DNA of 64,000 nt from Cephalotus follicularis (taxonomy: Eukaryota > Streptophyta > Magnoliopsida > Oxalidales > Cephalotaceae): assembly GCA_001972305.1 (NCBI GenBank), contig BDDD01001602.1, forward strand, positions 228,546 through 292,545. Direction: 5' to 3'. This document shows, in pieces, positions 123 through 63,344 of this stretch; positions within the stretch are counted from its first letter, which is position 1, and each line of letters begins with the position of its first letter. Made by a program: the position numbers and the translations under genes. The notes beneath the pieces are model-generated. The model ran no database searches. It had not been told where the DNA came from and was given only the letters and a program-made list of their open reading frames with translations.

Positions 123-2267
123 TAAGTGTCCTGCGATGTGTCAACCATGCAAGGAGACATTACCAACTGTTGACAATGCCAGACTGAGGAGCCTTGCATG
201 TGCTCTATCCCTCCTGCAACCTGCAAACAGAGATTGGAAGGAGAGAAAGTGAATGACATAAGGCATGGGAGAGAGAGAGAGAGGGATGAGCGCTGTAATG
301 TGAGTTAAGGGAATCTGACGAAATTAAAGACACAAGTTGAGCCTTTATATCAGCTGATCCATGAGCTGATTGAGTGTTAGGAAACACTGAGGATAGAGGA
401 GAACTTGCTGGAGAATTGTTGGAGCTTGCATTTTGAGGATTAGAGTGTCCAAAGAGACTTGGAAGCTTTGATTTTCCTGGTAAGTTCCTAATCTGAATTC
501 GTTGCCCTAGTTATAAGAATGATACTTAAGTTACTGAATCTAAGTATAATAACCACTGTCAACCTAATTTAAGAGTTAATAAGTTTGAATTGAGATAGAA
601 ATGATAAATGGTTCAATAAGAGTTGAAACTAGGAACTAATAGTGATAAGCTATGGTTCAAGTTATAAGTTGTTACCATGATTAGATAACAAAATAGACTT
701 ACTGGTGTTAATGTATAAACCTGTAAACATGCAATTGTTCAGGCTAATTTCTGCAATTTTGGAAGATTGAAGGAGAGTGAAGAACATTTGGACATAGAGA
801 GAGAAATCAATTTCAATTGAATTCGGGATTGCTTTTAAGGTAGGGGTTTTGACATGTTTTTGAACATATAACATGTATAATGTGTAGTGATGGTTAAGAT
901 TTGATTGCATGTTGATTTGGACTGAGATTGAATCGTTTTTGTGCATTCTTTGTTTTGATATTGCTCCTGGAATTTGTAAGAAGGCCAGAACCGTCGATGC
1001 TTAAATAGAAACTGTCGACGCTTTGGTGTGTAAAAATGGCACATTAAGGCTTAGAAGGTCGACGCTTTACGTTTGATCGTGTGTCAGTGTTAACACTTAG
1101 TCGACAACCGTCGACGCTTAAATAGAAACTGTCGACGCTTTAGAACAGTAATTGTGGAAATGTTTAATTGATTGATTGAATTGGTTGTGGTTGAAAATAT
1201 CCTTGAATTGCTATATTGTATTGTTGTCATTACTGTTAATTAAAGTAATTTACCACTGTTACATATAAATTTCAAGGATTATACCAACTTAATGCTTTCA
1301 GCATAAATAATGATTTTAAACAACGGATTTCGGACAAAAAATCTCATTGTTATACAACTGCTATTTTCCTCGTATAGAGGCACTGTATCGTTTTGTTCTC
1401 CAAGAGAACCACTAACTGAATTGTTATGTTTTCTAAATATGACAACCACCGTTATATTGCATATTATAGATAGATGTAATATTGCCACTGAATTGATTGA
1501 ATTGATTGTCTATGCTATTGCCGTTAGTCGAGTGATAGAAGACATCACTGGCTACGGAGGTGGTCCTACGTGCCAGGAGTTGGCTAGAGTATCCACCCAA
1601 ACTGTTTGCAATGCATATCTTGATTGTTAAACTGCCTGCTAATGCCGGTAGTAACTGACTTGATCTATCATCTACGGAGTGAAGGGTGATAGATAGGTGG
1701 TGCACAGTTGGTGCTAGGAGTTAGCGACATGTGACACCCAAACCACTGTACTGATTGATTGTACCCTTGTGCGGTATTCTCGCATTGTACTGTCTATGGC
1801 CACTTGGCATGATTGCGTATATATTGGAATATTACATATATGTTATTTCATTTAAACTGTCATGCATATTACATTTATAGATTCATTTATCATGCATTAT
1901 CTTCCTACTTAGCCAAGTGAGGACAACGGCTAACCCCCTACAATTTAAGATTAAGCAAGGGCGTTCGAAAGGTACGGCTGAAGCTTTTGGAGAGCTTCTT
2001 TTCTGCTTAAGGTTGTTACCTTTATGTCGTTTTGTATTGTAATGAACGTTCACACTCCGTGTTGCTATTTTGCATTCCTTATGTCAAAGGATAACTGTTG
2101 GAATTGTACATGCACGTAGTATGGGCTGCGTGCGGATGACTTTATAATCCAGTTTTATATGCTTCCGCTTATTTTGTTGAATTGTTGAATGAAATGCTGG
2201 ATTATTATTTATTCCTCATATCACCATATATGCTTGTCTTAACGAGATTGGAAGGCGGGGTGTGACA
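123..2267 (+). mobile_element. Tekay-like gypsy LTR, 5' truncated (type A array)
   Basis: Collinear with 55610-57801 of the complete LTR at 55270-57801: same GA run (269-283), same TTTATATC TATA candidate (344-351), same GTCGAC cluster (993-1140), same conserved 3' block (about 1540-2060) and same GGGGTGTGACA end. The first third of the LTR is missing here because another LTR (1-122) interrupts it. LINE sequence follows directly at 2268, starting GCTAC; the second LINE copy reads AATGGCTAC at that point, which fits a TSD of GCTAC. A 106-codon frame at 1310-1630 has a counterpart at 56827-57144, but this follows from DNA similarity and I do not call it a gene. Confidence 0.8.
993..1140. repeat. 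GTCGAC palindrome array, type A
   Basis: Cores of the form GTCGAC-GCTT (with GTCGAT and GTTAAC variants) start at 993, 1014, 1058, 1089, 1100, 1110 and 1131. Steps of 21 bp separate 993/1014, 1089/1110 and 1110/1131, and 1014 to 1058 is 44 bp. A degenerate GGCTT lies between, at about 1048. The complete motif AAGCGTCGACGCTT is a perfect 14-bp palindrome. The counterpart array is at 56514-56656. Confidence 0.8.
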
Positions 2268-17676: not shown

Positions 17677-17839
17677 GGAAGTAAAAGCCGCCTTTGTTTT
17701 GTCGTTATCTTCTTAAAATAATCAAAGTTAGGTAAAATATTTTCGCTCCTTCATCCGTTTGTCGACACGCGTCCTTACTTAAAAAGTTAACGCGCTAAAC
17801 GACAAAAAATGCCGGTATTTCCAATTTTTTTCTCAAAGC

Positions 17840-18112
17840 GTCGGAGGTTATGAGTACAGTGTCGCCACTTAAGCCTCAAACCGTTGCCGCTTAAACCATG
17901 AAGCGTCTCCGGTTAAACGCATTAACAAAGGAAGTGGGCTTTCAGTGTCGACAAAAACGCTTAAAAGCGTCGGCGCTTTTAGGCTAAAACGTTTGTCTCG
18001 AAATGAGTCGACACTTAAGGCATTTCACCACATAACAAAGGCAAACTGTCGACGCTTTAAAATAGGCAGTCAACGCCTTATAAACTATCGACGCTTATTC
18101 CTGGCAATTGAC
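17840..18112. repeat. GTCGAC palindrome array, type A (degenerate)
   Basis: Cores start at 17840 (GTCGGA), 17861 (GTCGCC), 17883, 17905, 17947 (GTCGAC), 17969 (GTCGGC), 18007, 18048, 18069, 18087 and 18107, most followed or preceded by GCTT/AAGC. The first steps are 21, 22, 22, 42 and 22 bp. A spurious 128-codon frame (17945-18331) overlaps this array and the GC-rich segment at 18220-18310; I do not consider it a gene. Confidence 0.75.
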
Positions 18113-19237: not shown

Positions 19238-19366
19238 GTTGAAGGCATCGACGATTTGTCAAGGTGTCAACGTGAATCAAATTAAAGCAGGAAATCGTCG
19301 ACTGAAGGCGTTGACAAAAACTAAACAAAACAGGAAAGTGTCAACGCTTACGGTGTAGGCGTCGAC
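19238..19366. repeat. GTCGAC array, type A, first in Tat/Athila LTR
   Basis: Cores or variants at 19247 (ATCGAC), 19265 (GTCAAC), 19297 (GTCGAC), 19310 (GTTGAC), 19340 (GTCAAC) and 19361 (GTCGAC). Spacing is less regular than in other arrays, but the last pair is 21 bp apart. GTCAAC and GTTGAC are what CpG deamination of GTCGAC would give on either strand. Confidence 0.65.
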
Positions 19367-19551
19367 GGTTATAGCACTGAATAAAAAACAAACAGAAATT
19401 AAGGCAGGCAAATGATTAAATATCAAAGAAAGAAATAAAAAATGAATATAATATGCAAGATAAAGTTGGTTTTAGGGTATAGAAACTCACCATAGATTAT
19501 ATTGAAACACTCAATTACTTAATTTCTCAAACCTTGGTAACCAACAGTAGC

Positions 19552-20096: not shown

Positions 20097-20362
20097 GTCG
20101 TAAGCGTCGACGCTTACGTCTTGGGCGTCGACAGTTTGTAGCTTTGCGTTGACGCTTTGATGTGTTGAAGGCGCTAAGCGTCGACTTATATCTTGCGTGA
20201 TTGAGCTGACTTGAGTGTTAAGCATCGACGCTATTGGTCAAAGCATCGATGCTCAGAGGGTGTAATTCAATTTTCAATCTTCTGTACCAGAGCGTTGACT
20301 CTTTAATCTAAACCATTGGCGCTTTGTGTCTAGGCACCAATGCTTACAATCAAAGCGTCGAC
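20097..20362. repeat. GTCGAC array, type A, second in Tat/Athila LTR
   Basis: Cores at 20106, 20127 and 20148 (21-bp steps), 20180, 20224 and 20245 (21), then 20294, 20315, 20336 and 20357, an exact run of three 21-bp steps. The run includes GTTGAC, ATTGGC and ACCAAT variants still followed by CTTT or GCTT, and ends on a full AAGCGTCGACGCTT. The run shows that position, not exact sequence, has been kept. Confidence 0.8.
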
Positions 20363-20555
20363 GCTTTGCTTTATTTTTTGTAGATTTGAAATCTTGTCTT
20401 CAATTTTCACTAACTTGAACCATTCTTCATACACTTTGGTCTTTTTTACTCTTGTACCTGAAAATTAACAAAACACAACCACAGTAGTCTATTCCAAACA
20501 TAAAAATATAACAAATAGATTATTAAAAACACCACATTTTTATGCTAAACAAACA

Positions 20556-21229: not shown

Positions 21230-21338
21230 GTCGGTTGCCCTCAAGATTGGCCGACTGACTTGGTTGTGTAGTCGACTGCTTTGCCTTGGCAGTCGACTGG
21301 ATAGGTTGAGTGGTCAACTGCCAAGGGTGGCAGTCGAC
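21230..21338. repeat. GTCGAC array, type B, mid-LTR
   Basis: Cores start at 21230 (GTCGGT), 21250 (GCCGAC), 21271, 21292 (GTCGAC), 21313 (GTCAAC) and 21333 (GTCGAC). Steps are 20, 21, 21, 21 and 20 bp. The equivalent array in the solo LTR at 60434-63339 (61892-61999) has steps of 20, 21, 21, 20 and 20. Intervening bases are unlike each other within an array. Confidence 0.9.
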
Positions 21339-21917
21339 TGCCTCTGCCCAGAAAATGCAGAAATAGCAAGTCATGCACTGCAAGTTCAATTTCCAATTAA
21401 TTTCAACACATGTAATCATGCTGAAAATAACCATACATAATATGCATACTCATATCTTCCATAACATATCATCACCCCTACCTCAAATTGCTATCCCAAG
21501 ATCAATTGAGTTTGATCTTTCTCTTTGAGTTACATTCCTAGTTACATCATTAACATATTAACAGAGAATTCGGATTGAGAACTTACCAAGAAACCAAAGC
21601 TTCAAAGGTTCCTTCTTTGGCTCTCTAATTCATCCAATGCAAGCTTTCTAATAATCCCTCTCTTCACTTAGTGTTTTCTAAGACTCATATTCCTTCTCCA
21701 AGTCACATGCACTCACTTCTCTCTCTTTTCTTTCCATCACATGTATCCCTCTCTTCACTTTTCTCTCCTTAATTATCAGTTTGTAGGTTGTAGGTCTGCA
21801 GAGAACATGCAAGCATTCCCTTTTGCATGTTCTGGCAGGTGGTGAGAAGCATGTGCCTCCTACCCACCTGTCATTCTTGTCTCTGCACATGCTAGGAATC
21901 TATCCTGGGCAATTCCA

Positions 21918-21993
21918 GTCGACTGGCTATAGTGGGCAATCGACTGCCTTCATCACGTAGCAAACAGTCGACTGTTGCCCTATGATAGTCGGC
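21918..21993. repeat. GTCGAC array, type B, promoter-side
   Basis: Cores at 21918 (GTCGAC), 21939 (ATCGAC), 21967 (GTCGAC) and 21988 (GTCGGC). Steps 21, 28 and 21 bp. The same 21-28-21 pattern recurs at 27465-27540, 35348-35423, 41418-41493 and 60609-60684. Confidence 0.9.
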
Positions 21994-22167
21994 TGTTTGA
22001 GCTGGTTTAGGGTTTCCCGAGCTTTAATACTTCACCAATTGTATATCCATTCATCCCAAGCATTTACCAATCATAGAAATTAATATAATTGGATAAATAA
22101 CTCAATTAAAATGTATATTTAAATTAAATTGGATCAATATACATTAATTGAAGTTGCGGTTATTACA

Positions 22168-27071: not shown

Positions 27072-27464
27072 ATTGAGAACTTACCAAGAAACCAAAGCTT
27101 CAAAGGTTCCTTCTTTGGCTCTCTAATTCATCCAATGCAAGCTTTCTAATAATCCCTCTCTTCACTCAGTGTTTTCTAACACTCATATCTCATTTCAACA
27201 GCTGATATAATGTCAAAATCCTTTGAATTGGTCAGATTCCTTCTCCAAGTCACATGCACTCACTTCTCTCTCTTTTCTTTCCATCACATGCATCCCTCTC
27301 TTCACTTCTCTCTCATTAATTATCAGTTTGTAGGTTGTAGGTCTGCAGAGAACATGCAAGCATTCCCTTTTGCCTGTTCTGGCAGGTGGTGAGAAGCATG
27401 TGCCTCCTACCCACCTGTCATTCTTGTCTCTGCACATGCCAGGAATCTGTCCTGGGCAATTCCA

Positions 27465-27540
27465 GTCGACTGGCTATAGTGGGCAGTCGACTGCCTTCAT
27501 CACGTAGCAAACAGTCGACTGTTGCCCTATGACAGTCAGC
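27465..27540. repeat. GTCGAC array, type B, promoter-side
   Basis: Cores at 27465, 27486, 27514 and 27535 (GTCAGC): steps 21, 28 and 21 bp, as in the partner LTR. Confidence 0.9.
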
Positions 27541-28357
27541 TGTTTGAGCTGGTTTAGGGTTTTCCAAGCTTTAATACTTCACCAATTGTATATCCATTCA
27601 TCCCAAGCATTTACCAATCATAGAAATTAATATAATTGGACAAATAACTCAATTAAAATGTATATTTAAATTAAATTGGATCAATATACATTAATTGAAG
27701 TTGCGGTTATTACAGTATAACCATCTCTGTCGCCAAAAATGGACTTAGGTGTAAAGGGTGTAAAACAAAACTTTTAAAACACATAACGCAGCGGAATAAA
27801 CACCCTTAACAAGCTAACACTAGTCCATCTTTGCAAAACCACAAGACAAAGATCACCACATCATTAACAATAGTTGAATTGGTATCACCATAGCATGCAA
27901 TGGTGACACACAAACATGGCAACAAGAGAGGGAGACAAGGACATATACCAATGGTGTAGGCTCCTTTGTCTTTGCCGCTACAAAAGATGCACTGGTATTA
28001 ACAAGGGTTTTCAATGTCAATCCACCCTAGATAAGCTACAAACTTGGTGTTTAAATCACAGAAGGGATCACTCAGAAAACCAGAGAACCAATTTTGTTTT
28101 TCCTAGCAAAGTTACACACAAAAATGCTCTCATGGAACGCCTCTTAACCAGCCCCGTTTCTCTCTCTACTATTATTCTTAACCTCACTCCCTCTCCTTGA
28201 TCATGTTCCTACCTCTAATGAATCATGGAACCATGATCTAAGAGTGCCCCCTGTCATGCAGAGAGGGGAGAACATCACTGATAGTGGCTGGTAATGGGAG
28301 GTTGAGGAGAAAGAGAACGTGCGCACGTTCTGGACTATCCCACATCGCGCACAAAGC

Positions 28358-28494
28358 GTCAAAATCTTCCAATAAGCGTCGACGGTTATATGTAATAACA
28401 CTATATGTTTCAAGTGTTAAGCGTCGACGCTTTCCCAGAAGGCGTCGACGCTTTGTCTAATGATACACGTTGATGCTTTCCAAAATGCGTCGAC
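28358..28494. repeat. GTCGAC array, type A, in copia LTR
   Basis: Cores at 28358 (GTCAAA), 28378, 28423, 28444, 28469 (GTTGAT) and 28489; steps 20, 45, 21, 25 and 20 bp. Most sit in AAGCGTCGACGCTT-like contexts. Confidence 0.75.
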
Positions 28495-28718
28495 GCTTAG
28501 ACAAGCTGGTTAGGCAAATAGAGTCTAACTCTTAAATGAGTCCAAACCATTTAATCCCTTCTAATATTGATTAATTAAGATCAAGCAAATGTGTTTCCAC
28601 AAAATACAAGATCCACCTAACCGATATTTTATTTTATAAAATACACCATGACTTAATATGTCCAACATATTAATGTAATGATCATAATTGGGCATGGACC
28701 CCTTAAAATCTCGGTTAA

Positions 28719-34677: not shown

Positions 34678-34702
34678 NNNNNNNNNNNNNNNNNNNNNNN
34701 NN
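34678..34702. other. Assembly gap (25 N)
   Basis: Lies in the 3' LTR right after CAGTAGCAATCC, the position that directly precedes the mid-LTR GTCGAC array in the related LTR at 21008-22167. The partner LTR lacks this part, so the content is unknown. Confidence 0.95.
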
Positions 34703-35347
34703 ATTCGTTCCCATGTCAACAGTGGATATATATTACTAACATTAGTACGTTTAATCCGCTATCAACCTAATATCCAACTAGTAGCTCATCATTAGCTCAT
34801 AAATTCAACTCTTATTGAACCATTTACCCTTTCTATCTCACTTCAACTTATTAACTCTTAATCATGTTAACATAAGGTATGGATATCTAGTCCTAGTCTG
34901 TTTTCCTAGCTATTAACCATAACAGCATTAAGGAATTCGGATTAGTGACTTACCAAGAGAATCAAAGCTTCACTCTCCTTGAACACTCTAACATGCAAGC
35001 TCCAAGAAAATCTCTCTCCTTCAATTCCTTCTCCCCAGTGTTTTCTATCACCAAAATCAGTTCTTCACGGCTAATATAAAGGCTTAGAGTCTTAGAATTC
35101 GTTAGGATCCATTAACTCTACCTTCCCTCTTTTCCTTCTCTCTCTCACATGCACCTCTCCTCACTCTTTCTCTTCTATTTTTGCAGGTTGCAGGTGTGCA
35201 AATCTTGCAGAAGGAATAGAGGACATGCAAGGCACTCCTCTTGCATGTTATGGCAGCTGGTGATACGAATCCTTCATGCATGCCATGATTAGAACACTTT
35301 TCATCACTATATCTACGCATGCCAGACGCCTGTTCTGTGTCACTCCA

Positions 35348-35423
35348 GTCGACTGTCTCCCTGTGACAGTCGACTGTCTCTTCCACGAATCAACCAGTCG
35401 ACTGTTACCCTGTGACAGTCGGC
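35348..35423. repeat. GTCGAC array, type B, promoter-side
   Basis: Cores at 35348, 35369, 35397 and 35418 (GTCGGC): steps 21, 28 and 21 bp. Confidence 0.9.
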
Positions 35424-35596
35424 TGTTTGATCTGGTTTTAGGGTTCCTTAAGTTTTTTTTACAAATTTGTATTTCAATTCAACCCAAGCATTCACTAACC
35501 ACAATTATTATGTTAATTGGACAAACAATCTCAATTAAAATGTATATTTTATTTAAATTGGAGCAATATACATTAATTGAAATTGCGGTTATTAAA

Positions 35597-35613
35597 TTTC
35601 CCCCTCCTTAAAG
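35597..35613 (-). other. Polypurine tract
   Basis: Minus strand TTAAGGAGGGGGAAA adjoining the 3' LTR, matching the tract at 22168-22185. Confidence 0.75.
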
Positions 35614-40323: not shown

Positions 40324-41666
40324 TGTCACACCTCGTGATTCCATTACATTTAGACAACATGTAGTGATATCAGGAATAAGTAAATAATCCAGCATTCCAA
40401 ATAACAATTCAATATATAACCGGAAGCATTCATATATGGATTATAAATAAAAGTCATCCGCACGCAGCCCATACTACGTGCACATACAATACTAGCAATT
40501 ATCCTTTTACATAAGGAAAGTACAACAACAACGGAGTGCGAATCGTTCATTACAAAATAATACGACATAAGAATAACAACCTTAAGTAGATAAAAACTCT
40601 CCAAGCTTCAGCAACACTTCCCGTACGTCTTCGCGTAATATGAAATTGTAGGGGTTAGCCGTTGTCCTCACTTGGCTAAGTAGGAATAATGCTTGTTAAG
40701 GAATATATAAATGCAACATGTATGACATTTTATATTGAAAATAACATAATTAAGTATTCCAATATATAAGCAAGCATGCCAAGTGGCCAAGTGGATATAT
40801 ATTACTAACATTAGTACGTTTAATCCGCTATCAACCTAATATCCAACTAGTAGCTCATCATTAGCTAATAAATTCAACTCTTATTGAACCATTTACCCTT
40901 TCTATCTCACTTCAACTTATTAACTCTTAATCATGTTAACAGAAGGTATGGATATCTAGTCCTAGTCTGTTTTCCTAGCTATTAACCATAACAGCATTAA
41001 GGAATTCGGATTAGTGACTTACCAGGAGAATCAAAGCTTCACTCTCCTTGAACACTCTAACATGCAAGCCCCAAGAAAATCTTTCTCTCCTTCAATTCCT
41101 TCTCCTCAGTGTTTCTATCACCAAAATCAGTTCTTCACAGCTGATATAAAGGCTTAGAGTCTTAGAATTCGATAGGATCCATTAACTCTACCTTCCCTCT
41201 TTTCCTTCTCTCTCTCACATGCACCTCTCCTCACTCTTTCTCTTCTATTTTTGCAGGTTGCAGGTCTGCAAATCTTGCAGAAGGAATAGAGGACGTGCAA
41301 GGCACTCCTCTTGCATGTTATGGCAGCTGGTGACACGCATCCTTCATGCATGCCACGATTAGAACACTTGTCATCACTGTCTCTGCGCATGCCAGACGCC
41401 TGTTCTGTGTCACTCCAGCCGACTGTCGTCCTGTGACAGTCGATTGTCTCTTCCACGAATCAACCAGTCGACTGTTACCCTGTGACAGTCGGCTGTTTGA
41501 GCTGGTTTTAGGGTTCCTTAAGTTTGTTTTACCAATTTGTATTTCAATTCAACCCAAGCATTCACTAACCATAATTATTATGTTAATTGGACAAACAATC
41601 TCAATTAAAATGTATATTTTATTTAAATTGGAGCAATATGCATTAATTTAAATTGCGGTTATTACA
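40324..41666 (-). repeat. 5' LTR with large internal deletion
   Basis: TGTCACACC to TTATTACA. Relative to 33587-35596 it lacks the part from about 34052 to 34722; the junction reads GCCAAGTGGCCAAGTGG near 40789. TATA candidate GATATAAA (41143-41150 on the plus strand; TTTATATC on the minus). Promoter-side GTCGAC array at 41418-41493. Confidence 0.9.
41418..41493. repeat. GTCGAC array, type B, promoter-side
   Basis: Cores at 41418 (GCCGAC), 41439 (GTCGAT), 41467 (GTCGAC) and 41488 (GTCGGC): steps 21, 28 and 21 bp, about 270 bp upstream of the TATA candidate in LTR orientation. Confidence 0.88.
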
Positions 41667-43311: not shown

Positions 43312-43313
43312 AT

Positions 43314-43325
43314 TGGTATCAGAGA
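43314..43325 (+). other. Primer-binding site
   Basis: TGGTATCAGAGA, 2 bp after the LTR; complementary to initiator Met tRNA with one difference at the last base. Confidence 0.85.
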
Positions 43326-43357
43326 ACCAGGTTTGAAGTGAGCTCTTATCAACATCA

Positions 43358-44590: not shown

Positions 44591-46889
44591 CAGTGGGAGT
44601 TGTGCTAACATTGCTTCCACCACCTTGGTGACTAAGTTGGGGCTGCCAACAACATCTCATCCGAAACCTTATAAGCTTCAATGGCTTAATGATGGAAACC
44701 GACTGAAAGTTACTCATCAAGTCCTACTCTCTTTTGCCATAGGTAAACACTATAATGATGAGGTTCTTTGTGATGTAATTCCAATGGATGCATGTCATTT
44801 GTTACTTGGAAGACCGTGGCAGTTTGATAGGAGTGCCATTCATGATGGAAGAAAGAACACTTATACCATTAAAAGAGATGAAAAAAAGGTTGTATTAACA
44901 TCTCTTAAACCCTCCAAGTTACTTGAAGACAAAACAGAAACATTTAAGAAAGAGAGCTTGTTTTTGAATGGTGGATGCGTAGAGAAAGCTTTGGATGAGA
45001 AGAAGGGTGTTCTTGCTTTATTGGTTGCGGAACGAGATCAACGGGAGGAAATCAATATTCATCCTCTTGTTCAACCTATAATTGCTGAATTTGAAGATGT
45101 ATTCCCTAAAGAGTTACCACATGGCTTGCCTCCATTAAGGGGCATAGAGCATCAAATTGATTTGGTACCCAGGAGTGTCATACCAAATAAGGCAGCCTAT
45201 AGATGTAATCCGGAGGAGTCTAAGGAGCTGAATAAACAAGTTGAGGAGTTGATTGCTCAAGGGATTATAAGGGAAAGCATGAGCCCTTGTTCGGTACCTG
45301 CCTTTTTGGTACCAAAGAAGGATGGAACCAACCGAATGTGTGTGGACAGTAGAGCTATCAATAATATTACAATCAAGTATCGTTATCCTATTCCTAGGTT
45401 GGATGACATGCTTGATGAACTGTATGGATCCACTATCTTCTCCAAGATTGACCTTCAGAGTGGACATCATCAAATTCGAATGAAAGAAGGAGACGAATGG
45501 AATACGGTATTTAAAACTAAAAAAGGACTTTATGAATGGTTGGTGATGCCATTTGGGCTTTCTAATGCCCCTAATACCTTCATGAGATTGATGAATGAGG
45601 TACTAAGTTCCTTTATTGGAGTTTTTGTGGTTGTATATTTTGATGATATTCTTGTGTATAGCAGGAGTGAGGGAGAACATCTTGATCATTTGAGGCAGGT
45701 TTTTGCCAAGCTAAGGAAGCAAAAACTATATGCTAAGATGGAAAAGTGTCAGTTCTTTTCATCTAGTATTGTCTTCCATGGTTATGTTATTTCAGAAGAG
45801 GGGATTTCAATGGATCAATCAAAAGTGGAAGCAATCAAATCATGGCCTGTTCCTAAGACCATCACCGAAGTTAGAAGCTTTCATGGACTTGCTTCGTTCT
45901 ATAGGAGATTTATCAGAAATTTTAGTATTGTCATGGCACCCATTACTGAATGCATGAATAAAGGTTTTAATTGGTCCAATTCAACGGATGTGGCCTTTGA
46001 GAACATCAAAGAGATGCTTTGTAAGGCTCATGTCCTTGCACTCCCTAATTTTGATATTGTCTTTGAGGTTGAATGTGATGCTAGTGGAGTTGGCATTGGA
46101 GCTGTCCTTACTCAAGCTCATAAGCCCTTAGCCTATTTTAGTGAGAAACTTTCGGGTTCAAGGCTAAACTATTCAACCTGTGATAAGGAGTTTTATGCTA
46201 TAGTGAGAGCTCTTGACCATTGGAGCCACTATCTAAAGCCAAAACAGTTTGTGTTGCACTCGGATCATGAAGCATTGAAGTATATTAGTGCCCAACACAA
46301 GCTGAATTTGAGACATGCAAAATGGGTTGAATTTCTTCAATCTTTTTCTTTTATTTCTAAATATAAACCTGGAAAGACTAACATTGTTGCAGATGCACTA
46401 TCAAGGAGATATTCTATGATTGTTATGCTCGATGCAAGAATCCTTGGTTTCCAATCTATGAAGGAGAGCTATGCTGAGGATCATGTTTTTCTTTCCATTA
46501 TTGAAGGATGCAAAAGAGGAGTCAATGGTGTATTTTCTGTCCAAGATGGTTTCCTTTTCAAAGGAAACAAACTTTGTGTTCCAAGAAGCTCTTTTAGGGA
46601 ATTACTTGTGAGGGAGGCTCATGGAGGAGGACTTGCAGGTCATTTTGGAGTAAACAAGACGCTGGAGTTGTTACAAGAACATTTTTTTTGGCCCAAAATG
46701 GTAGGAGATGTGCAATCCATAGTGGCAAGGTGTGCTACTTGTAAAAAGGCCAAAAGTCATTTCCAACCAGGTTTATATACTCCTTTGCCCGTGCCTAATC
46801 AACCTTGGGATGACGTGAGTATGGACTTTATTGTTGCTTTAACCAAGACTCAAAGAGGCAAAGATTCTATCATGGTGGTTGTAGACTGA
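44466..46889 (+). pseudogene. CRM-like protease, RT, RNase H, integrase start
   Basis: 807-codon frame whose first ~35 residues are probably out of the natural frame. Protease DSG is at residues 42-44 ([12 protein letters not shown]). RT has [17 protein letters not shown] (about 284-300) and catalytic YFDD at 391-394. RNase H has [13 protein letters not shown] and [12 protein letters not shown]. The integrase zinc region ([18 protein letters not shown]) and core start MDFIVAL follow. It ends in a TGA directly after VVVD, where family members have Arg (a CGA-to-TGA change fits). Downstream integrase is at 46890-47737. Confidence 0.9.
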
Positions 46890-47737
46890 TTCTCAAAAAT
46901 GGCACATTTTGTTCCATGTCATAAAACCGATGATGCCTCTAATGTTGTTGCCCTTTATTTTAAAGAGATCATTCGTTTGCATGGGGTGCCCAAAACCATT
47001 GTTTCAGATAGGGATTCTAATTCCTAAGTTATTTTTGGAAGACTTTGTGGGCTAAACTTGGTACTAAACTTCTTTTCAGTACTTCTCACCATCCCCAAAC
47101 CGATGGGCAAACTGAGGTGACCAATCGGACCCTTGGAACTCTTCTCAGAAGTTTAGTAGCCAAGAATTTGAAGGATTGGGATTTAAAGCTTGCACATGCT
47201 GAATTTGCTTATAACCGGCCTCCTAGTTCAACAACCAGTACTTCACCATTTGAGGTAGTATATGGTTTAAATCCTTGCACTCCTTTGGATCTAATTCCTT
47301 TACCAATTTCAGGGCAAGTCAGTTTTGAAGCTAGTGAAAGAGCTAAGAATTTGAAAAAGCTTCATGAATCCATTCGGGCCAAAATTGAGATAGCAAATGA
47401 CATGTATAAAAGAAAGGCCAACAAGCACCGGAGGAAGACTGAATTTCAACAAGGTTATATAGTGTGGGTCAATTTGAGAAAGGAGAGGTTCCCATCAAAG
47501 AGGAAGAGTAAGTTATCTCCAAGGGCAGATGGTCCTTTTGAAGTCCTAGAGAGAGTTGGTGATAATGCTTATAAGTTCAAACTTCCTGGAGACTGTGGAG
47601 TTTCGGCCACTTTTAACATTGGAGACTTGTCACCTTTTGTTGAAGATGAATACATTTCAGATTTGAGGTCAAATCCTAACCCACCCGAGGAGAATGATCC
47701 AAGAAAGAGTCACAGCCCAAAAAACTCTAATTTCTAA
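46890..47737 (+). pseudogene. CRM-like integrase, C-terminal part
   Basis: Translation continues after the TGA with [15 protein letters not shown] and [13 protein letters not shown], loses frame near 47020 by a single-base change, and resumes in frame 47045-47737 with FSTSHHPQTDGQTEVTNRTL (catalytic Glu block), GPFEVLERVGDNAYK and a tail ending SHSPKNSNF. The last about 15 codons lie inside the 3' LTR (from 47695). No clear chromodomain core is seen; the CR-type motif of CRM elements is expected in this tail. Confidence 0.85.
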
Positions 47738-48722
47738 GTTTGGACCGAATATGCCCCAAAATTCTTTTGGGTTTCTAAATCCTTCTGTTGGGCTTACTAC
47801 ACTTATTTGGACCCAATCCCATGATAAGGAGGTTGAAATTTCGTCCATTTAATGGAGTTTCAAGTTTGATGTCCAAATTCAATGAATCAAGCAATGAATA
47901 CTTATGATTCCAAAAATATGATTTGGGAAGGTTCCCATAAGCCTACATTTATGAAATTTCATGGTCTTCTATGCATAGAAGCTAGTATCAATTTATGGGA
48001 GCATGATATTTCGAGTTTCAAGACTTGGGAAGTAGTTTCTATGCATGGAAGCTAGTATCAATGTATGGGAGCATGATATTTCGAGTTTCAAGACTTGGGA
48101 AGTAGTTTCAAGGCATGAAAGCTTGTTTCAACACATTGGTTTCATCTTTCAAGACTTTGATTAATTTCTTTGTAATTTCCTATGAAGACTCATTTATTAT
48201 CTTCTAGTTTCTTGTATTTGTAGTTTGACCAATCATTAATGATGTAATCTGGTTGGTTTAGTTCACCATGTGGTTAAACAACATCTAGCCATGGTTCCTA
48301 GTAGTAGGTTTGGCCTGAAGCTTATAAAAGCCTTTGAAACATAATGTAAGGGGATTTTGGACGAATTTTAATAATACTTTGAAGTATTAAACTGAACTTT
48401 GTGTTCTTTTATCTCCTTTATCCAAGTCTTGATCTAGCTTGGTGGTGGATTGTTCTTGCTGGTGGCTTTGCCTTTATGCTTGGACCTTCTTTGATCAATT
48501 ATCTATCTTCAACATTTCTTGACAAAAACCAGAAAATTAAACCTTAAAGAACCCCCAAACCCGTGACCTATTACCATACACCACCCTAAACACCAAACTA
48601 GCCCCTAATCCTCCTTACATACCTTCCAAAACATATCCCCATTGCCACGAAAATTGAACCAGCCTTAAACACTATCCCTAAAGTTGATAGCTCACTTGAA
48701 AGGCCCATAAACACCCGCATCA
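47695..48722 (+). repeat. 3' LTR of CRM-like element
   Basis: Begins TGATCCAAGAA after a short purine stretch GAGGAGAA (polypurine tract) and ends GCATCA at 48722. It is longer than its partner because of a 70-bp tandem duplication at 47968-48107. Confidence 0.9.
47968..48107. repeat. 70-bp tandem duplication in 3' LTR
   Basis: Two near-identical units, each starting TCTATGCAT(A/G)GAAGC, at 47968 and 48038. The 5' LTR has only one (42627 onward), so this arose after insertion, or the copy was lost from the other LTR. Confidence 0.85.
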
Positions 48723-48727
48723 CTTTT

Positions 48728-49767: not shown

Positions 49768-50731
49768 CTACAGCTTCAGCGATGATCCTAGATCCATCCC
49801 CAAGCCGTAAGTCCAATCTCCGGCTCCAAGCTTTCTAACTTTTCTTAGTCCCTTCAACGAATTGCATAGGTTAGTTCCACATCCAGTATCCAATACCCAT
49901 GAAGAACTACAATTCAAATCTAGATTAAGTTCAATCATGAACATACATGATGTTCTCACACCATGAGAAACATCAGAAGAGACTCCAGCACCAGTAACCC
50001 AATAATCCTTCTTCCAGTGTCCAGTCTTGCCACACTAGAAGCAGGCACCCTCAGCTGCCAGCTGCTTCAAATGATTCTTGGTATCGCTCCCACTAGCTCC
50101 AAGCTTTCCCTCCTGGGCTAGGATCTTGACTTCTTCGAGTCAAGATTAGCCTATGTCGTTCTAAACATAGAAACTAACTCAGATGAGTCACTTCTATCTC
50201 AATCAAGTGAAAAAACTCCACAAACTGTGAGAACGGTCTAGGGAGGGATGTAAGGATAAGATCTATCTGCATATCGTGATCCATGAAAAAATCTAATTGA
50301 GTAACCTGCTCAATCATGTCTATCGTCTCCAGTCCATGATCATGGACCAAAGCTCCCTCTGGCATCTGGGCCTTGAAGAGTCTGCGAGAGAGATTAAGCC
50401 TCCAAGTCCTAGACCCAACCCCATACATCTCCTCAAGATGGAGTAGTATAGAGGATAAAGTTTCCATCTTCTCGTACTTGCATTGCAGCTCCGGCGTCAT
50501 CCCTAGAAGGGCTATGCACCGAGGTTGCTCGTTGTCTTCCAGCCACATGGCCAGACGGTCGCACTCATAAGGCGTAGGATCATCACCTAGTGATGGAGGC
50601 CCCCATTTCATCACATACTCCAATTTATTGGCCATTAGGATGAATTTAAGGTTAGGTTGCCAATTGATGAAGTTTGGGCCTTCTAACTTGTTTGTCTCTA
50701 GAATGCGGGACATAGAAGATTGTAAAGCCAT
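49768..50731 (-). pseudogene. Copia Gag and protease
   Basis: Frame 50731-50174 (185 codons, MALQSSMSRILETNKLEGPN) is copia Gag: FINWQPNLKFILMANKLEYVM, then LHLEEMYG and LILTSLPRPFSQFVEFF, the conserved end of the capsid region. After a stop comes a damaged zinc knuckle (CGKTGHWKKD near 50020, first Cys followed by a stop) and the aspartic protease motif SSSWVLDTGCGTNLC in frame 49959-49768. Gag to protease order and minus strand fix the orientation of the whole copia element. Confidence 0.85.
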
Positions 50732-51610
50732 TTTATAACAGCCTAGATAAGGAAATATAAAGGTGAGTCAGCATCTATTCCAATTTTAATATATGACAAC
50801 CATAACACTTGGTCTTTAGTGCTTATGGTTCCTCCCACTATTCTAATCGTATCCCATACCCCCATATGGAACTCGAGAAGTCCAACTTCCTAGTGAGGAT
50901 TGGAATCCATCGCAATCATATTATGGCCTCAGCTAGGGCATGGCAAACCATAATATATCCAATGGGTAGGCTATCTTGCCAATTTGTATCCAATACAAGA
51001 TCCAATCATAAAATTCGGCCTTAGATTCAATATGGCCTCAGCTAGGGCATGACAAACCATTAGAATCACAATAAGTCAGACACCCACAATTTTAATTGGA
51101 ATGCACTAGTTTTAACGCCCACACGTAGGCGTGTCCAAGTGCTAAAACATATCCACCCTTTGCGGTGTCCAACACTGACGTTGACATAGTGTCCCACAGG
51201 TTACCAGCCTCAGCTAGGGCATGACAAACTAATAACCCAGGTACACCACTCAACAAAAATTATGGAAGGCCACCGGGAACCACTCCATGGTTCCTATGTT
51301 CAGACTTATTATTGATTTGAGGGAATTTACGATCTCACATTTTAATTACCGAGCCATTAATTAATTCATTTGTTGCATTAGCCAATTCCAATTAATTTAC
51401 GGCTTAGCATACATGACGTGTATCTTATGCACCTTGGACATATTTCTAAAGTATATCAATGGATTTGGCAAGGACATTATAGGTAGTGACTTGAGCCCAA
51501 AGTCACTACTAGGTCTTCCTAGGTGTAAAGAATAAATTTACCTATTACAACAATAACCATGCATACATCGCCTTCAAAGGTCTTGTACTTCATTTCTCCT
51601 CTCCTCCATC
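50732..51610 (-). mobile_element. Copia 5' leader (untranslated)
   Basis: Non-coding. Contains four copies of a GGCCTCAGCTAGGGCATG(G/A)CAAACC-like segment (near 50925, 51030, 51210 and partially 51330). No TGGTATCAGAGC primer site is present in it, so the LTR-leader border is not located. It stops at the solo LTR 51611-53629 and continues at 53635. Confidence 0.5.
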
Positions 51611-51773: not shown

Positions 51774-51994
51774 GTCGACGCTGAAGGCTAAAGAGTCGAC
51801 GCTTTGGGTAACGGTCGACGGTTTAAATGTAAATGTCGATGCTTTGAGGTCAGGTAGGTCAGTTGACGTTGACGTTGACGAAGACTTAAAAGCGGCGACG
51901 CTTTGTAATAAAACGTCTGCGCTTTAATCGGGATAGAGGTGAAAAAGCTCAGATAAAACCCTTAACCGTCGATGCTTAGAGGGAAACCGTCGAC
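51774..51994. repeat. GTCGAC array, type A, upstream of TATA
   Basis: Cores at 51774, 51795, 51814, 51835 (GTCGAT), 51862 (GTTGAC), 51868, 51874, 51894 (GGCGAC), 51915 (GTCTGC), 51968 (GTCGAT) and 51989. Steps include 21, 19, 21, 27, 20, 21 and 21. The array ends about 65 bp before the TATAAATA box. Confidence 0.85.
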
Positions 51995-52057
51995 GCTTTA
52001 AGACATTTTTCTGAAATTTTGTACGCCACAAGCAATGAATGGAGGCAGCATTTTTTG

Positions 52058-53634: not shown

Positions 53635-54295
53635 TCTCATTGCAAGATCTTCATTTACAAAAGGAACTTTACATTTTGAAAATAAAATTACATTTAAAAT
53701 TACAAAGAGAAATTACATAAGAAGGAAAGATAAATTGTGCACGCAGGCACCTTATTACAGACCATTAAAGATAATAAATAAATAAATCGAACCACACAAG
53801 AAAAACCATAAACTAGGTCAATGTCCTTTTAGGTCATCCATTGTGCATAAGACTTAAAATTATATCCAATATAATTTAACACAAAATAAAAATGCCATAA
53901 AAAATAACCAATTACAAAATTTCATTGAAGGAATGTTAATTGGTCAAACTCCCACTAAATCAAGCAATGATTTTAAATTTTCTAAGTGCCATAATGCAAA
54001 ATTCAAAATTTTATAAAATAGTTTTTTTTTTATGAAAGCGTCGACGCTTAACGTCTAACATTAAAAAACATGAAAAATTCAAATAAGCGTCGACGCCATA
54101 CGTAGATGTCGACGCATACAAAACCGTGTGATAAGCGTCGATGCCTCAACCAAAAGCGTCGACGCTTAAGTCTACTGCATGGGTTATGCATATTGCAAAA
54201 CAACAGATTTCAATGCTTTAGACTTTGGCATTCCATCTTGGCAATCCAAACTGCACTATGCAGGTTCTAAACATAATCCTAAAAACATTGTCACA
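53635..54295 (-). mobile_element. Copia 5' leader or LTR part with type A array
   Basis: Continues the copia DNA after the solo LTR. AT-rich, with no coding frame. Holds GTCGAC cores at 54040, 54089, 54108, 54137 (GTCGAT) and 54158 (steps 49, 19, 29, 21), in AAGCGTCGACGCTT contexts. Whether it is leader or the 5' LTR is not settled; I could not align it with 27757-32326 by eye apart from the array. Confidence 0.45.
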
Positions 54296-55269: not shown

Positions 55270-55419
55270 TGTAATAACCGTAATTTTAATTCATGTATTT
55301 TGTACTCAATGATTAATAAAATATACTTTTGAGTTTATGAAAGGTTATCTTTTGAATAGAATGGAATTTGGGATAAACTCTTAAATGAAAAATAGAGAAG
55401 TAAATTCTGGTGCTAAACC

Positions 55420-55535
55420 ACCGACGCCTAACGCCATACCGTCGATGCTTTGAGCCCAGACAAGTGTACAAAACGCGCAGTTGAAGGCTGAGTTATGACG
55501 CACAAACCGTCGACACCAGAGATAAAACCGTCAAC
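55420..55535. repeat. GTCGAC array, type A, promoter-side
   Basis: Cores at 55420 (ACCGAC), 55441 (GTCGAT), 55509 (GTCGAC) and 55530 (GTCAAC). Two pairs with 21-bp steps, 68 bp apart. It occupies the LTR position that carries type B cores in the LTR at 60434-63339. Confidence 0.8.
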
Positions 55536-55758
55536 GCTTTGCGCGATATCAGGAATGTGATACATGCCTGTAAGAACAGAGCAGTGGTGCCAAACGGGTT
55601 CCATACGAGCTAAGTGTCCTGTAAATGTGTCAAAACACACCAGAAGCCTTCACCAGCTAGGTAACATGCAAGGATAGAGCCTTGCATGTGACCTAAAAGC
55701 CTGCAACCTACAACCTACCAGAAATTAAAGAGAAAGAACAAAAGAAAAGAAGGCATGC

Positions 55759-55760
<2 letters not shown>

Positions 55761-55806
<46 letters not shown>
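55761..55806. repeat. (GA)n microsatellite
   Basis: About 22 GA units. The related LTR copy has only about 7 at 269-283, so it has expanded here or shrunk there. Confidence 0.95.
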
Positions 55807-55808
<2 letters not shown>

Positions 55809-55863
55809 TGAGTGCTGTAAATTTGAGTTAATGGAATCTGACAAATTCCTAAACTTTTGACCC

Positions 55864-55871
55864 TTTATATC
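55864..55871 (+). promoter_or_regulatory. TATA box candidate of Tekay-like LTR
   Basis: TTTATATC, conserved at 344-351 and, in minus orientation, at 41143-41150. In each case it follows the GA-rich or CT-rich stretch and the promoter-side array by a few hundred bases. Confidence 0.5.
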
Positions 55872-56513
55872 AACTGTGAGAGATTGAATGAGAGTGTTAG
55901 AAAACACTAAGCAATAGGAAGAACATTTGGACAGTGGCTGAGATTGCATGTAGAAGGAACTTGAAGTTCAAAGGGGAAAAATTGGAGCATCACCTGGAAT
56001 TGGTAAGTAATCCGAAATTTCTTGATGTTGTTAAGGTCGTTAGTAATGTAACACCCTGATGTTAGCACTACACATCCACTGTTAACATGATTAGGAAGGA
56101 TAAAGCATGGAAGTAGAGATTGAAAATTGTATTAGTTAGAAATTACAAAGTTGAACTTAGAAGTGAACTATAAGCTTCTGATTCGATTCTTGATGTTATC
56201 ATGGTTAGATAACGAATAAACTTACTGGTATTAATGTCTAAACCTGTAAACATGCAACTGTTTAGGCTAATCTCTGCAAATTAGAAGATTAAGTTGGAAG
56301 TTGAAGAACTTGGACTCAAAGAGAGATCAATTCGATTTGATTTCAGGATTGCTTTTAAGGTAGGGGTTTTGACATGTTTTTGAACATATAACATGTATAA
56401 TGTGCTATAATGGTTAATATTTGATTGCATGATTGAATTCGACTGAGATTGAATGAAAATTTTGCATGCCCTGTTTTGGTACTGTTCCTGGAATTCGTAA
56501 GAATGCCAGAAGC

Positions 56514-56656
56514 GCCGCCGCTTAGGTTAAGACCGTCGACGCTTTGGTATGAAAAACGTCTGTTAAGGCTTAGAATGTCGACGCTTAAGCTTTGATCATG
56601 CGTGTAGTGTCAACGCTTAGTCAACAACCGTCGACGCTTAAACAGAAACTGTCGAC
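56514..56656. repeat. GTCGAC array, type A, mid-LTR
   Basis: Cores at 56514 (GCCGCC), 56535, 56577, 56609 (GTCAAC), 56630 and 56651. Steps 21, 42, 32, 21 and 21 bp. Matches 993-1140 core by core, and lies at the LTR position that carries type B cores at 61892-61999 in the solo LTR. Confidence 0.85.
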
Positions 56657-57805
56657 GCTTTAGGACAGTAAGTGTAGAAATGCGTAATTTCATTGATTGA
56701 ATTGATTGTGATTGTAAATATCCTCGAACTGTTATATGTAGCTGTCATTACTGTTTATTAATGAAATTACTACTGTTATGTACAACTCTCAAGGATTTTA
56801 CCAACTTAATGCTTTAAGCATAAATAATGATTTTTACAACGGATTTCATACAGAAAATCTTATTGTATACATATGCTATGTTCCTCTACAAGAGGTACTG
56901 TATCGTTTTATTCTCCAGAGAACCACTGACTGAACTATTATGTTTTCTAAAAATGAAAACTACCGTTTTATTGCATATTATAGATATATGTAATATTACC
57001 ACTGAATTGATTGAATTGATTGTCTATGCTATTACCGTTAGTCGAGTGATAGGAGACATCACTGGCTACGGAGGTGGTCCTATCTGCCAGGAGTTGGCTA
57101 GAGTATCCACCCAAACTGTCTGCAATGCAGAGATTGATTGTTAAACTACCCGCTAATGCCGGTAGTAACTGACCTGATCTATCATCTTCGGAGTGAAGGG
57201 TGATAGACAGGTGGTGCACAGTTGGTGCTAGGAGTTAGCGACATGTGACACCCAAACCACTGTACTGATTGATTCTACCCTTGTGCGATATTCTTGCATT
57301 GTACTGTCTATGGCCACTTGGCATGTTTGCGTATATATTGAAATACATATATATATATATATATATATGTTATTTTAAACTGTCATGCATATTTACATTT
57401 ATATATTCAATTATCATGCGTTATCTTCCTACTTAGCCAAGTGAGGACAACGGCTAACCCCCTACAATTTCAGATTAAGCAAGGGCATTCGGAAGGTGCT
57501 GCTGAAGCTTTTGGAGAGCTTCTTTTCTGCTTAAGGTTGTTATTCTTTATGTCGTACTGTATTTTTAATGAACGGTTCGCACTCCGTGTTGTTGTTTTAC
57601 TTTCCTTATGTAAAAGGATAGTTGTTGGATTGTACGAGCACGGAGTATGGGCTGCGTGCGGATGACTTTTATTTTATAATCTGGCTTATGGAATGCTTTC
57701 ACTTATATATTTGAAATGTTGAATGGCATGTTGGATTATTATTTAATTCTGATATCACCATATATGCTTGTCTTATTGGAATTGAAAAGCGGGGTGTGAC
57801 AGGCA

Positions 57806-60433: not shown

Positions 60434-60608
60434 TGTAATAACCACAACTCCAATTAATGTATATCGATCCAATTTTGAACAAAATATACATTTTAATTGA
60501 GTTATTTGTCCATTTATGCTAATTTCTATGTTTGGTAGATGTTTGGGGTGAATAGATATGCAATTGGTGATGTATCGGAGCTTAGGAAACACTAAATCAG
60601 CCCAAACA

Positions 60609-60684
60609 GCCGACTGCCACAGGGCAACAGTCGACTGTTTGCTACGAGTTGAAGGCAGTCGACTGCCCCCTATATCCAGTCGAC
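60609..60684. repeat. GTCGAC array, type B, promoter-side
   Basis: Cores at 60609 (GCCGAC), 60630, 60658 and 60679 (GTCGAC): steps 21, 28 and 21 bp. Confidence 0.9.
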
Positions 60685-61891
60685 TGGTTTGCTCCAGGAC
60701 AGATTCCTGGCATGTGCAGGGACAAGAATGACAGGTGGGAAATGGCACTTGTGTCTCACCACCTGCCAGAACATGCAAAAGTGAATGTTTGCATGTTCTC
60801 TGCAGACCACCAACCACCAAATTGATAATTAATGAGAAAAGTGAAGTGATGGAGGCATGTGATGGAAGGAAAAGAGAGTAAGATATGAGTGCATGTGAGT
60901 AGGTGACAAATCTGACGAATTCAGAGGTCCTTGAGAGTTATATCTACTGATGGAATGGTGTTTGAGTGTTAGAAACACTAAGTGAAGAGAGGAATCATTG
61001 GAGCTTACATTGGATGATTAGGAAGCTCAAAGAAGGAACCTTTGAAGCTTTAAACTCTTGGTAAGTTTTCAATCCGAAATTCTCTGTAATTGTAATAATA
61101 ATATAACTAGGAGAATGTTGAATACCTCCTGTTCACATAATTAAAGATAACAAATTCTAGAATTGATTTAGAATTGGTAATGGGAGGAAGAAAGAATGTG
61201 AATATGGAGCTTTGAGAAATTAAGTGACACTAATTTGAATTTGTAATGGTTGATTAGTGTTATAAATTACTGATTTCCTTACCTATACCTACTGTTGAAA
61301 CATGCAAATCAGTAGATGGATTGAGTAAATTATTTGGAATATGGAGAGTGTTTTAAATGGAACTAGAGACTTAAGAGTTCTATTAATTCTTGATGAAACT
61401 AGATAATGATTATAGTAATTGATTAGCATATATATACGTACTGATTTCATGAATATATCTTCTCTCAAACAAGTTAGAATCAATGAATTCGAGATTGAAT
61501 AATTGTTAACATAGAGTTCAAAGGAGAATTGGAAAATGGAAGTTAAGAATTAGAGAACTTGATGATTGAAGTTATTGTTGGAATTGTAATTGTTCTAAGT
61601 AGCTAATGAAACCTACTGCTACTAATGCACGAGTCTATAAACATGCTTACATAGATTGATATTGCTGAATTGAAAGAATTGTTGGTAAAAGTGACTTGGA
61701 ACTCAAAGAGAAAGAACAAACTCAATTGATCTTGGGATAGCGATTTGAGGTAGGGGTAATGATATTTCATGGAAGATATGAGTATGCATATTGTGTATAT
61801 CTATTTTCTGCATGTTATATGTATTGAAATTGATTGGAGATCGAATTGGCATTGCATGACATGCCACTGCCCGAATTTATGGGCATAGGCA

Positions 61892-61999
61892 GTCGACTGC
61901 CAACCTTGGTAGTCGACTACTCAACCTATCCAGTCGACTGCCAGGGCAAAGCAGCCGACTACACAACCCAACAGCCGACTGTTCTTGAGAGCAGCCGAC
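61892..61999. repeat. GTCGAC array, type B, mid-LTR
   Basis: Cores at 61892, 61912, 61933 (GTCGAC), 61954, 61974 and 61994 (GCCGAC): steps 20, 21, 21, 20 and 20 bp. Flanks vary (GGCA..TGCC, TA..TA, CA..TG) but keep local dyad symmetry in the first three units. The clearest example in the window. Confidence 0.92.
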
Positions 62000-63344
62000 T
62001 GTTCTGGGCAGAAATTTCATAATGTTGATTGAATTGCCACTGTTTGACATTGTTATTGAATTGTATATGCTATCACCATATGGTACACACTGATTGATGA
62101 GAGTTAACATCACTACTACTTGTATTGTAACTATTGAATGAATTATGTGCCATATGTACAATTCATGGTTTTAAAACACCATTTTCAAAGGAAAACTATT
62201 ATTGCAAGAATTAATGATTTGTGGAAATTGTTACTGAATATGCTACTGTCATATTATTATAAACTGTTTTGGTGTCCTTTAAACACCACTGACATTGTAT
62301 TCAATGATTGAAACCAAATATGGGTTATGTACCCAAAACATGATATTATCTATCATTTTCAAATGGACACTTATTGTTTAAAAAGGAACGATTGATTTTC
62401 CTCCTATATGAGAGGCACCTACTGTTTTGTTTCCAAATTGGAAACCACTTTTGAATTGAGATCGTTTTCCTCCGAAGAGATGTACGATAAATGATCGTTA
62501 TATGTTTCTAAAGAAAACAACCTTTATATTGCATATTATTGATATATGTAATATTATTGAACTGAATTGATTGAATGGATTTGTCTATGCTTGTTACCGT
62601 AGCCGAGTGATGGAGGACGTCACTGACTATTGATGTGATTCTGCGTGCCAGGAGTTGGCCAGAGTATCACCTAAATGTGTTTGTAATTGTTACACTACCC
62701 GCCAACGCCGGTAGTAATTGTTACCTGATTTATCATCTTCGGAGTGTAAGGTGATAGATAGGTGGTGCACTGTTGGTGCTAGGAGGTGGCGACATGTGAT
62801 ACCTAATTGATGGATGAATTGATTGTACCCTTGTGCGGTATTATTGCATATGTTTTGTCTATGGCCACTTGGCATGATTGCTTATATATATTGGCTCATT
62901 TAAATGTTATTTTGATATAAACTGTCATACCTGTTGCATTCACATATTCCTTATCATACATTATCATTCTGCTTAGCCAAGTGAGGACAACGGCTAACCC
63001 CTACAATTTCAGATTAAGCAAGGACATTTGGAGACTGCTGCTGAAGCTTGGAGAGCTTCTCTTGTTATTTTAAGGTTGTTATTTATGATGTTGTATTGTA
63101 ATTGAAATTGAACGGTTCATACCTCGTTATATCGTATTTCCTTATTTAAGGATATTGTTGGTTTTACCCGCACGTAGTATGGGATGCGTGCGGACGGCTT
63201 GTATTTATATATTCCGGCTTATCAAATGCTTCCGCAAAATTTAATTATGAATTGTGCTGGAATATTAATTATGTTTATTTTCTGATATCACCACATATGC
63301 TGGTCCATTTTACGTGAACCGAAACAACGGGGTGTGACAGGTTA

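Follow-up and report, generated by a model that had tools for sequence, protein, structure and literature searches.

The heat-responsive elements of ONSEN and of further COPIA elements in the Brassicaceae are among the closest described systems: according to Pietzenuk 2016 (PMC5059998), they are clustered in the LTRs and were acquired more than once, in separate families, the one in ONSEN through duplication of a proto-site. These elements are clusters of nGAAn with gaps of <5 bp, and their factor, HSFA2, is known (PMC5059998). The targets of the VANC proteins of VANDAL elements form a second such system, for which the main text of Hosaka 2017 (PMC5735166) describes short, clustered motifs in intronic or upstream positions that differ between related elements and have spread by tandem repeat formation. 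The protein is encoded by the element itself, VANC21 motifs are arrayed in one orientation, and in that main text the string 'palindrom' is absent; the motif descriptions drawn on here mention neither a palindrome nor a fixed 21-bp step (PMC5735166).

The DNA analysed here is a single stretch of 64 kb (the window), probably from a plant, judging by its retroelements, in which sites with a GTCGAC-type core form arrays inside LTRs or adjacent to them. The core carries two types of arm, CAGTCGACTG and AAGCGTCGACGCTT, and the resulting classes 1 and 2 were assigned by eye; class-1-like half arms also occur in array F and at individual sites in X1 and X2. The arrays resemble the ONSEN type in being clusters of sites in LTRs, a host factor being here a candidate reading, and they resemble the VANC targets in their clustering upstream or in a putative intron, in their variants between related elements and in their probable spread by tandem repeats. 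They differ from the COPIA heat elements in that the sites are palindromes of 10-14 bp standing 21 bp apart, in both Gypsy and Copia elements.

The CRT/DRE cold element (CCGAC), reported from alfalfa (PMC5059998), offers a further likeness. The variants GCCGAC, GTCGGC, ACCGAC and GTCGGT seen here hold the CCGAC core on one strand; the sites as a whole do not share that core, which is found in just 16 of the 43 class-1 sites and in 1 of the 47 listed class-2 sites (plus the site at 55420), and the T-to-C variant is nearly absent from class 2. The motif (G/a)(T/c)CGAC, accepted by barley CBF2, is a CBF-like site that the class-1 variants fit; to our knowledge, CBF-like factors are not known to need palindromes. 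VANDAL elements are DNA transposons, and HTLV-1 and SV40 have viral promoter elements with 21-bp repeats, which are alike in the length of the unit but differ from the present arrays in motifs and spacing logic.

The 21-bp pair and its carriers

The window has 57 occurrences of GTCGAC, where 4.69 would be expected and the highest of 100 shuffles gave 9. Matches of at least 5 of 6 bases stand at 41 of the 113 positions located 21 bp to either side of these exact sites, a count that takes in related LTR copies, as opposed to 3 at 20 bp and 2 at 22 bp. When hexamers were ranked by their exact pairs at distances of 8-60 bp, simple repeats of 1-3 bases being excluded, GTCGAC at 21 bp had the most of any hexamer (n = 11), the sole higher row being a run of N; the remaining listed rows are GTCGAC itself with a distance of 49 bp, or hexamers that overlap the same site with a distance of 21 or 49 bp. 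In regions chosen by eye as GTCGAC clusters, with the spacings already in view, and with one array taken per group and transition variants allowed, a 21-bp pair was present in all ten array groups (null mean 1.24, maximum 6 in 20,000); with exact GTCGAC only it was present in 7 of 10 (null mean 0.43, maximum 5), and the ten arrays together hold 17 such pairs, where 1.31 would be expected. The pattern greatly exceeds chance, and its recurring constant unit is a pair of sites 21 bp apart. A reading made from the sequence alone had named a sharp distance peak at 20-22 bp over all LTRs of the genome as its support; within this window a sharp peak exists, and its position is corrected to exactly 21 bp. 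That the SalI site is a cloning artefact was considered and dropped, since it agrees poorly with the conserved arms, the conservation within subfamilies and the 21-bp steps. A search of viral contigs with either 21-bp pair pattern gave 0 matches.

The array groups (Table 1) are spread over about six LTR families, Gypsy and Copia: a Gypsy group made up of E1, E2, E3, P and D1, the C pair, X1 with X2, an Athila/Tat-like element holding F and G, and two Copia elements holding H and J. The feature is not peculiar to the LTR family of E3 and E1. By place, 42 of the 57 exact sites are in examined LTRs (the putative F/G LTR included), 5 in D1, 4 in H, 4 in J and 2 elsewhere (41758 and 63979), and none was found in the internal regions of E1 and E2 or in 42352-48725, 10382-16251 and 2269-6064. 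Pfam identifies Gypsy-type domains in E1, E2 and P, and the ends of the LTRs suggest a Gypsy type for C, X1 and X2 as well, X2 being a solo LTR flanked by an identical five-base sequence on each side. A polypurine-like tract, order and orientation point to a place for H and J inside Copia LTRs and for F and G inside an Athila/Tat-like LTR. The Copia gag listed with array J is accompanied by a GAG-pre-integrase fragment, and upstream of H weak RVT_2 fragments (33220-33588) stand in order, below the curated cutoff; the one ORF near H that was compared with solved structures had no match among them.

Table 1. Arrays of GTCGAC-type sites in the window, with the LTR that holds arrays A and B of E3
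Feature	Position	Strand	Description
Array C1	7652..7857	-	about ten class-1 sites, 20-22 bp, one 28-bp step; LTR with Gypsy-type ends
Array C2	29600..29806	+	ten class-1 sites, 20-22 bp, one 28-bp step; LTR read as solo (28719-31253)
Array A, solo LTR E3	61892..61999	+	six class-1 sites (CAGYCGACTR), steps 20,21,21,20,20
Array A, E1 3' LTR	21230..21338	-	six sites, steps 20,21,21,21,20
Array B, U3 of LTR E3	60607..60686	+	two 21-bp pairs, 28 bp between; cores 60609, 60630, 60658, 60679
Array B, U3 of E1 3' LTR	21916..21995	-	steps 21,28,21
Array B, E1 5' LTR	27463..27542	-	steps 21,28; fourth site decayed
Array B, E2 3' LTR	35346..35425	-	steps 21,28,21
Array B, E2 5' LTR	41416..41495	-	steps 21,28,21
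U3 array, P 5' LTR	55420..55535	+	class 2; 21-bp pairs 55420/55441 and 55509/55530; eleventh array, beyond the ten groups
Leader array, P 5' LTR	56535..56660	+	class 2; steps 42,32,11,10,21
Leader array, truncated LTR D1	993..1140	+	class 2; steps 21,44,42,10,21
U3 array, LTR X1	17761..18078	-	class 2; upstream of TATA-like motif
U3 array, LTR X2	51774..51998	+	class 2; three 21-bp pairs, upstream of TATA-like motif
Array G	20104..20366	-	class 2; after PPT-like sequence of Athila/Tat-like element (element class judged by eye); TATA-like motif downstream
Array F	19297..19370	-	class 2 by eye, arms mixed; farther downstream in same putative LTR as G
Array H	28376..28498	-	class 2; putative 3' LTR of Copia element
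Array J	54038..54167	-	class 2; putative LTR, upstream of Copia gag (50177-50767), about 25 bp from TATA-like motif
LTR E3 (TGTAATAACC...GGGGTGTGACA)	60434..63339	+	probably solo; inserted in element P, within its internal region; arrays A and B lie inside

Array A is the row on which the sequence-only reading had been built, and both of its claims about the spacing, six GTCGAC-type cores at 61892-61999 and a related row in the LTR at 21230-21338, are borne out by the positions of the cores, although exact GTCGAC makes up only 3 of 6 in either LTR, the rest being off by 1-2 transitions. In E3, GTCGAC stands at 61892, 61912 and 61933 and GCCGAC at 61954, 61974 and 61994; in the 3' LTR of E1, GTCGAC stands at 21271, 21292 and 21333, with GTCGGT at 21230, GCCGAC at 21250 and GTCAAC at 21313. 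Long phased rows of this kind are extensions of the 21-bp pair unit. The 5' LTR of E1 (26885-27714) is without array A and its surroundings, both of which are present in the 3' LTR, a difference that is due to deletion or to gain after insertion.

The window holds several other repeats. In one Gypsy group the LTRs (55270-57801, 60434-63339 and 33587-35602) have their 3' halves in common and differ in parts of their 5' halves and in arm class, a mosaic that looks as if U3 modules had been swapped. Pieces of a DUF4283 ORF (8953-9754), which we take to be probably a LINE-type ORF struck by the insertion of an LTR, adjoin the LTR of C1; with this ORF adjoining, array C had been considered part of a LINE 5' region, a candidate dropped on finding that the boundaries TGTAATACCC...GGGGTGCTACA resemble those of a Gypsy-type LTR. 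Matches to U2 snRNA (Rfam RF00004) at 2870-3078 and 5262-5387 lie inside 1.4-kb direct repeats (2268-3672 and 4660-6064; 95% identity), a 1.4-kb inverted repeat without GTCGAC (11279-12650 / 14875-16251; 76% identity) is possibly a DNA transposon with long ends, and a 70-bp tandem repeat of 2.4 copies (47967-48131) lies in an LTR-like repeat of a Gypsy element that has no GTCGAC.

Conservation of the sites and growth of the arrays

Array B of the Gypsy group shows the sites conserved while the spacers change. Across all five LTRs, identical columns make up 35/40 in the sites against 18/40 in the spacers and 145/226 outside the array (p = 5e-5). With the best-preserved LTR of each of the three subfamilies, a choice that drew on the better-preserved LTR of E1 and of E2, 39/40 site columns and 19/40 spacer columns are identical, and over all four ways of choosing one LTR per subfamily the ranges are 36-39/40 and 18-19/40. 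The top windows of 10 columns, selected blind to the motif, coincide mainly with sites. The footprint is small in array A, where differing positions amount to 14% in cores, 12% in spacers and 19% outside, and there is little contrast between sites (25%) and spacers (29%) when C1 and C2 are compared (outside, 44%). In this set of footprint comparisons one site in the E2 alignment is a likely false call.

Methylated CpG is expected to be lost fastest. In five LTR pairs summed, CpG was kept in 23/39 cases in cores against 56/267 elsewhere (p = 2e-6), the counts being taken from whole-LTR MAFFT alignments of which some are poor (58-84% identity); pair by pair, it was kept at 9/10 sites in E1-E3, 5/6 in D1-P5 and 1/10 in X1-X2. 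Two pairs, left out of the sum since their elements are already in other pairs, would reduce the contrast if included: the 3' LTRs of E1 and E2 (4/9 sites, 4/20 others), and E3 with the 3' LTR of E2 (0/10 sites, 13/54 others). The latter result is probably a misalignment, because the shorter alignment of array B keeps CG at 4/4 sites between the same two LTRs. These counts bear on the suggestion that the arrays are bound by a silencing or repressor protein of the host, their persistence reflecting tolerance or a benefit to the element in hiding, or that the sites act as methylation bait through CAG/CTG and CG together. Each perfect class-1 site does combine CG and CHG contexts; a harmful site should nevertheless be lost, and the cores retain CpG better than other positions in the five pairs summed, if not in X1-X2, which leads us to consider silencing quite improbable.

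The spacers record how the arrays may have grown. In C2 their mutual identity is 0.453 against 0.305 in permutations (45% against 30%; 0 of 5000 permutations), so that this array probably grew by tandem duplication, while in C1 it is 0.356 against 0.293 (p = 0.007) and in array A the excess is marginal. Between neighbours 21 bp apart, identity at the mid-spacer offsets 10-15, a range picked after the profile was seen, is at background (28/108 positions in 18 pairs), and beside the sites 10/18 pairs agree at offset 16 of the 21-bp register and 8/18 at offset 20. Tandem Repeats Finder reports 21-bp arrays at 61886-61943, 21287-21342 and 56609-56660, with 2.5-2.8 copies each. An ordinary 21-bp tandem repeat, with units alike over their full length, is not what these arrays are, C2 and more weakly C1 excepted. 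The sequence-only reading had held that the spacer bases do not repeat and would have given up its case had the spacers proved to be decayed copies of one 21-bp unit: the former stands for the middle of the spacers between 21-bp neighbours, and the latter applies in part, as C2 bears traces of such a unit. In our view arrays probably lengthen through tandem duplication, with the spacers decaying afterwards and the sites persisting. The LTR of E1 and the stretch of C2 share a single match, of 31 bp, located at the arrays themselves. Arrays B and C contain the same odd 28-bp step (21890-22020, 7640-7880 and 29590-29830), divided in C1 into 14+14 by a weak eleventh site.

A neutral minisatellite, in which a 21-bp unit was duplicated and decayed and the palindrome owes its survival to chance or to quasi-palindrome correction, would explain the likeness of the spacers in C2, C1 and marginally A, the short arrays reported by Tandem Repeats Finder, the agreement next to the sites and the weak footprints of A and C. 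It does not explain why mid-spacer identity is at background, why the sites of array B persist as their spacers diverge, or why core and step are common to families without detectable homology, and we regard it as unlikely.

Symmetry, helical phase and position

The outermost pair of the class-1 12-mer is variable yet complementary within a site in 28/43 cases, against 14.0 expected (0 of 5000 permutations); with one array per group it is complementary in 11/16 (p = 0.003), a value that becomes p = 0.10 under one alternative choice of representative arrays. The arms of class 2 show no covariation beyond composition. Symmetry could also be read at the level of RNA, the palindromes pairing as hairpins, dimerising RNA or marking a 21-nt small-RNA register, and adjacent palindromes are indeed complementary by construction. 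Neighbours are, however, without significant covariation (p = 0.30 and 0.37 with the seven arrays together; the smallest value, 0.09, came from one subset), on which ground the hairpin between neighbouring palindromes was dropped, and RNA should prefer the U-G wobble of GTCGGC to the C-A mismatch of GCCGAC on the sense strand, whereas each occurs in 7/43 class-1 sites, related copies included. Phased small RNAs, moreover, require no motif in each register, and none of the present results speaks for a small-RNA reading. An RNA-level role is in our judgement very unlikely, and symmetry within the single site is better read as that of a DNA-bound dimer.

Class-1 steps are of 20-22 bp in 15/17 cases, the other two being of 28 bp, and class-2 steps in 14/36, of which 13 are exactly 21 bp. 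No helical phase (10.5 bp) was detected among 20 class-2 gaps outside 19-22 bp (R = 0.10, p = 0.83), for steps typed by hand with one array per homologous group and with two entries dropped, an X1 step of 186 bp and the weak site in C1. Strict helical phasing of whole arrays was rejected, given that the 28-bp step (2.67 turns) recurs in B and C and that class-2 gaps are unphased. The idea that a whole array lies on one face of the DNA holds for array A and inside both parts of array C, and fails for arrays B and C across their 28-bp step and for the class-2 gaps.

In E1, E2, E3, P5, X1 and X2 the arrays are close to the 5' end of their LTR, and in E1, E2, E3 and P5 the U3 array starts ~150-180 bp into the LTR, with the exception of the 5' LTR of E1, where the first of four sites has decayed. 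TATA-like motifs, which are pattern matches of a kind also met elsewhere in these AT-rich LTRs, occur downstream of the array in the 5' LTR of E2, in P5, X1 and X2, and in the elements of G and J, at about 70-100 bp in X1, X2 and the G element and about 25 bp in J; between array and leader no such pattern was found in E1 and the 3' LTR of E2, and E3 has no convincing match there. Farther downstream in E3, array A stands between splice-like signals of the leader, and like the downstream array of P5 it is flanked by a donor-like GGTAAGT and an acceptor-like TTTCAGATTAAG, again pattern matches, so that these two arrays may lie in a leader intron.

A dimeric protein as candidate reader

What has been observed directly is the sites and how they are spaced, that array B is conserved, and that the sites are concentrated in LTRs or putative LTRs. 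The best explanation of these observations, to which we give an even chance, is that the arrays serve LTR retrotransposons as cis-regulatory, enhancer-like elements, read by a dimeric, probably host, DNA-binding protein. Such a protein would recognise, as a symmetric dimer, each palindrome of 10-14 bp around TCGA, and two dimers would bind together two helical turns apart. The sites would act from a position upstream of the putative LTR promoter and, in one Gypsy group, a second time within the putative leader intron, raising transcription whenever the protein is there. A host gene probably encodes this protein, an origin favoured because Gypsy and Copia families share core and 21-bp step. The sequence-only reading had likewise called for a protein that needs aligned sites; binding by a symmetric protein is retained as the best reading, and alignment of the whole array gives way to the pair as the constant unit.

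Alternatively, the arrays may be targets of an anti-silencing protein encoded by the elements, which, like VANC, would bind clustered short non-coding motifs and remove methylation, the arms shifting between subfamilies as protein and target co-evolve. The traits of VANC motifs set out at the beginning speak for it, since here too dense motif arrays lie in non-coding parts (the U3 and a putative leader intron) and differ between subfamilies, and so does the finding that the four LTRs with two arrays (E1, E3, P5 and the putative F/G LTR) carry the same arm class in each of them, as judged by eye, with array F mixed. No extra gene was recognised, however, in the copies of E1 and E2, where 4/5 ORFs of at least 150 aa have gag-pol domains and the fifth (36069-36803) has only weak, below-cutoff integrase matches at the place expected for integrase; the motif is common to Gypsy and Copia; and the single orientation of VANC21 motifs differs from the palindromes seen here. 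We hold this alternative to have a small chance of being right.

Returning to a dimeric reader, we offer tentatively, and would sooner bet against than for, the further proposal that unrelated Gypsy and Copia families of one plant genome converged on, or exchanged, GTCGAC pairs exactly 21 bp apart, read by one dimer-of-dimers system not yet described for LTRs. The arms would then act as a specificity code that can be switched, with the sites in any one LTR moving together from CAG-CTG to AAGC-GCTT under a constant core and spacing, and the two arm classes would reveal shifts of target specificity between element families. The pair is short and exact enough for the protein to be isolated directly by affinity purification, and the array could also flag LTRs that work as enhancers near genes. 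If the proposal is true, several retrotransposon superfamilies of this plant rely on a single DNA-binding system, a dependence that would help to explain how retrotransposons escape silencing or what sets the timing of their activity.
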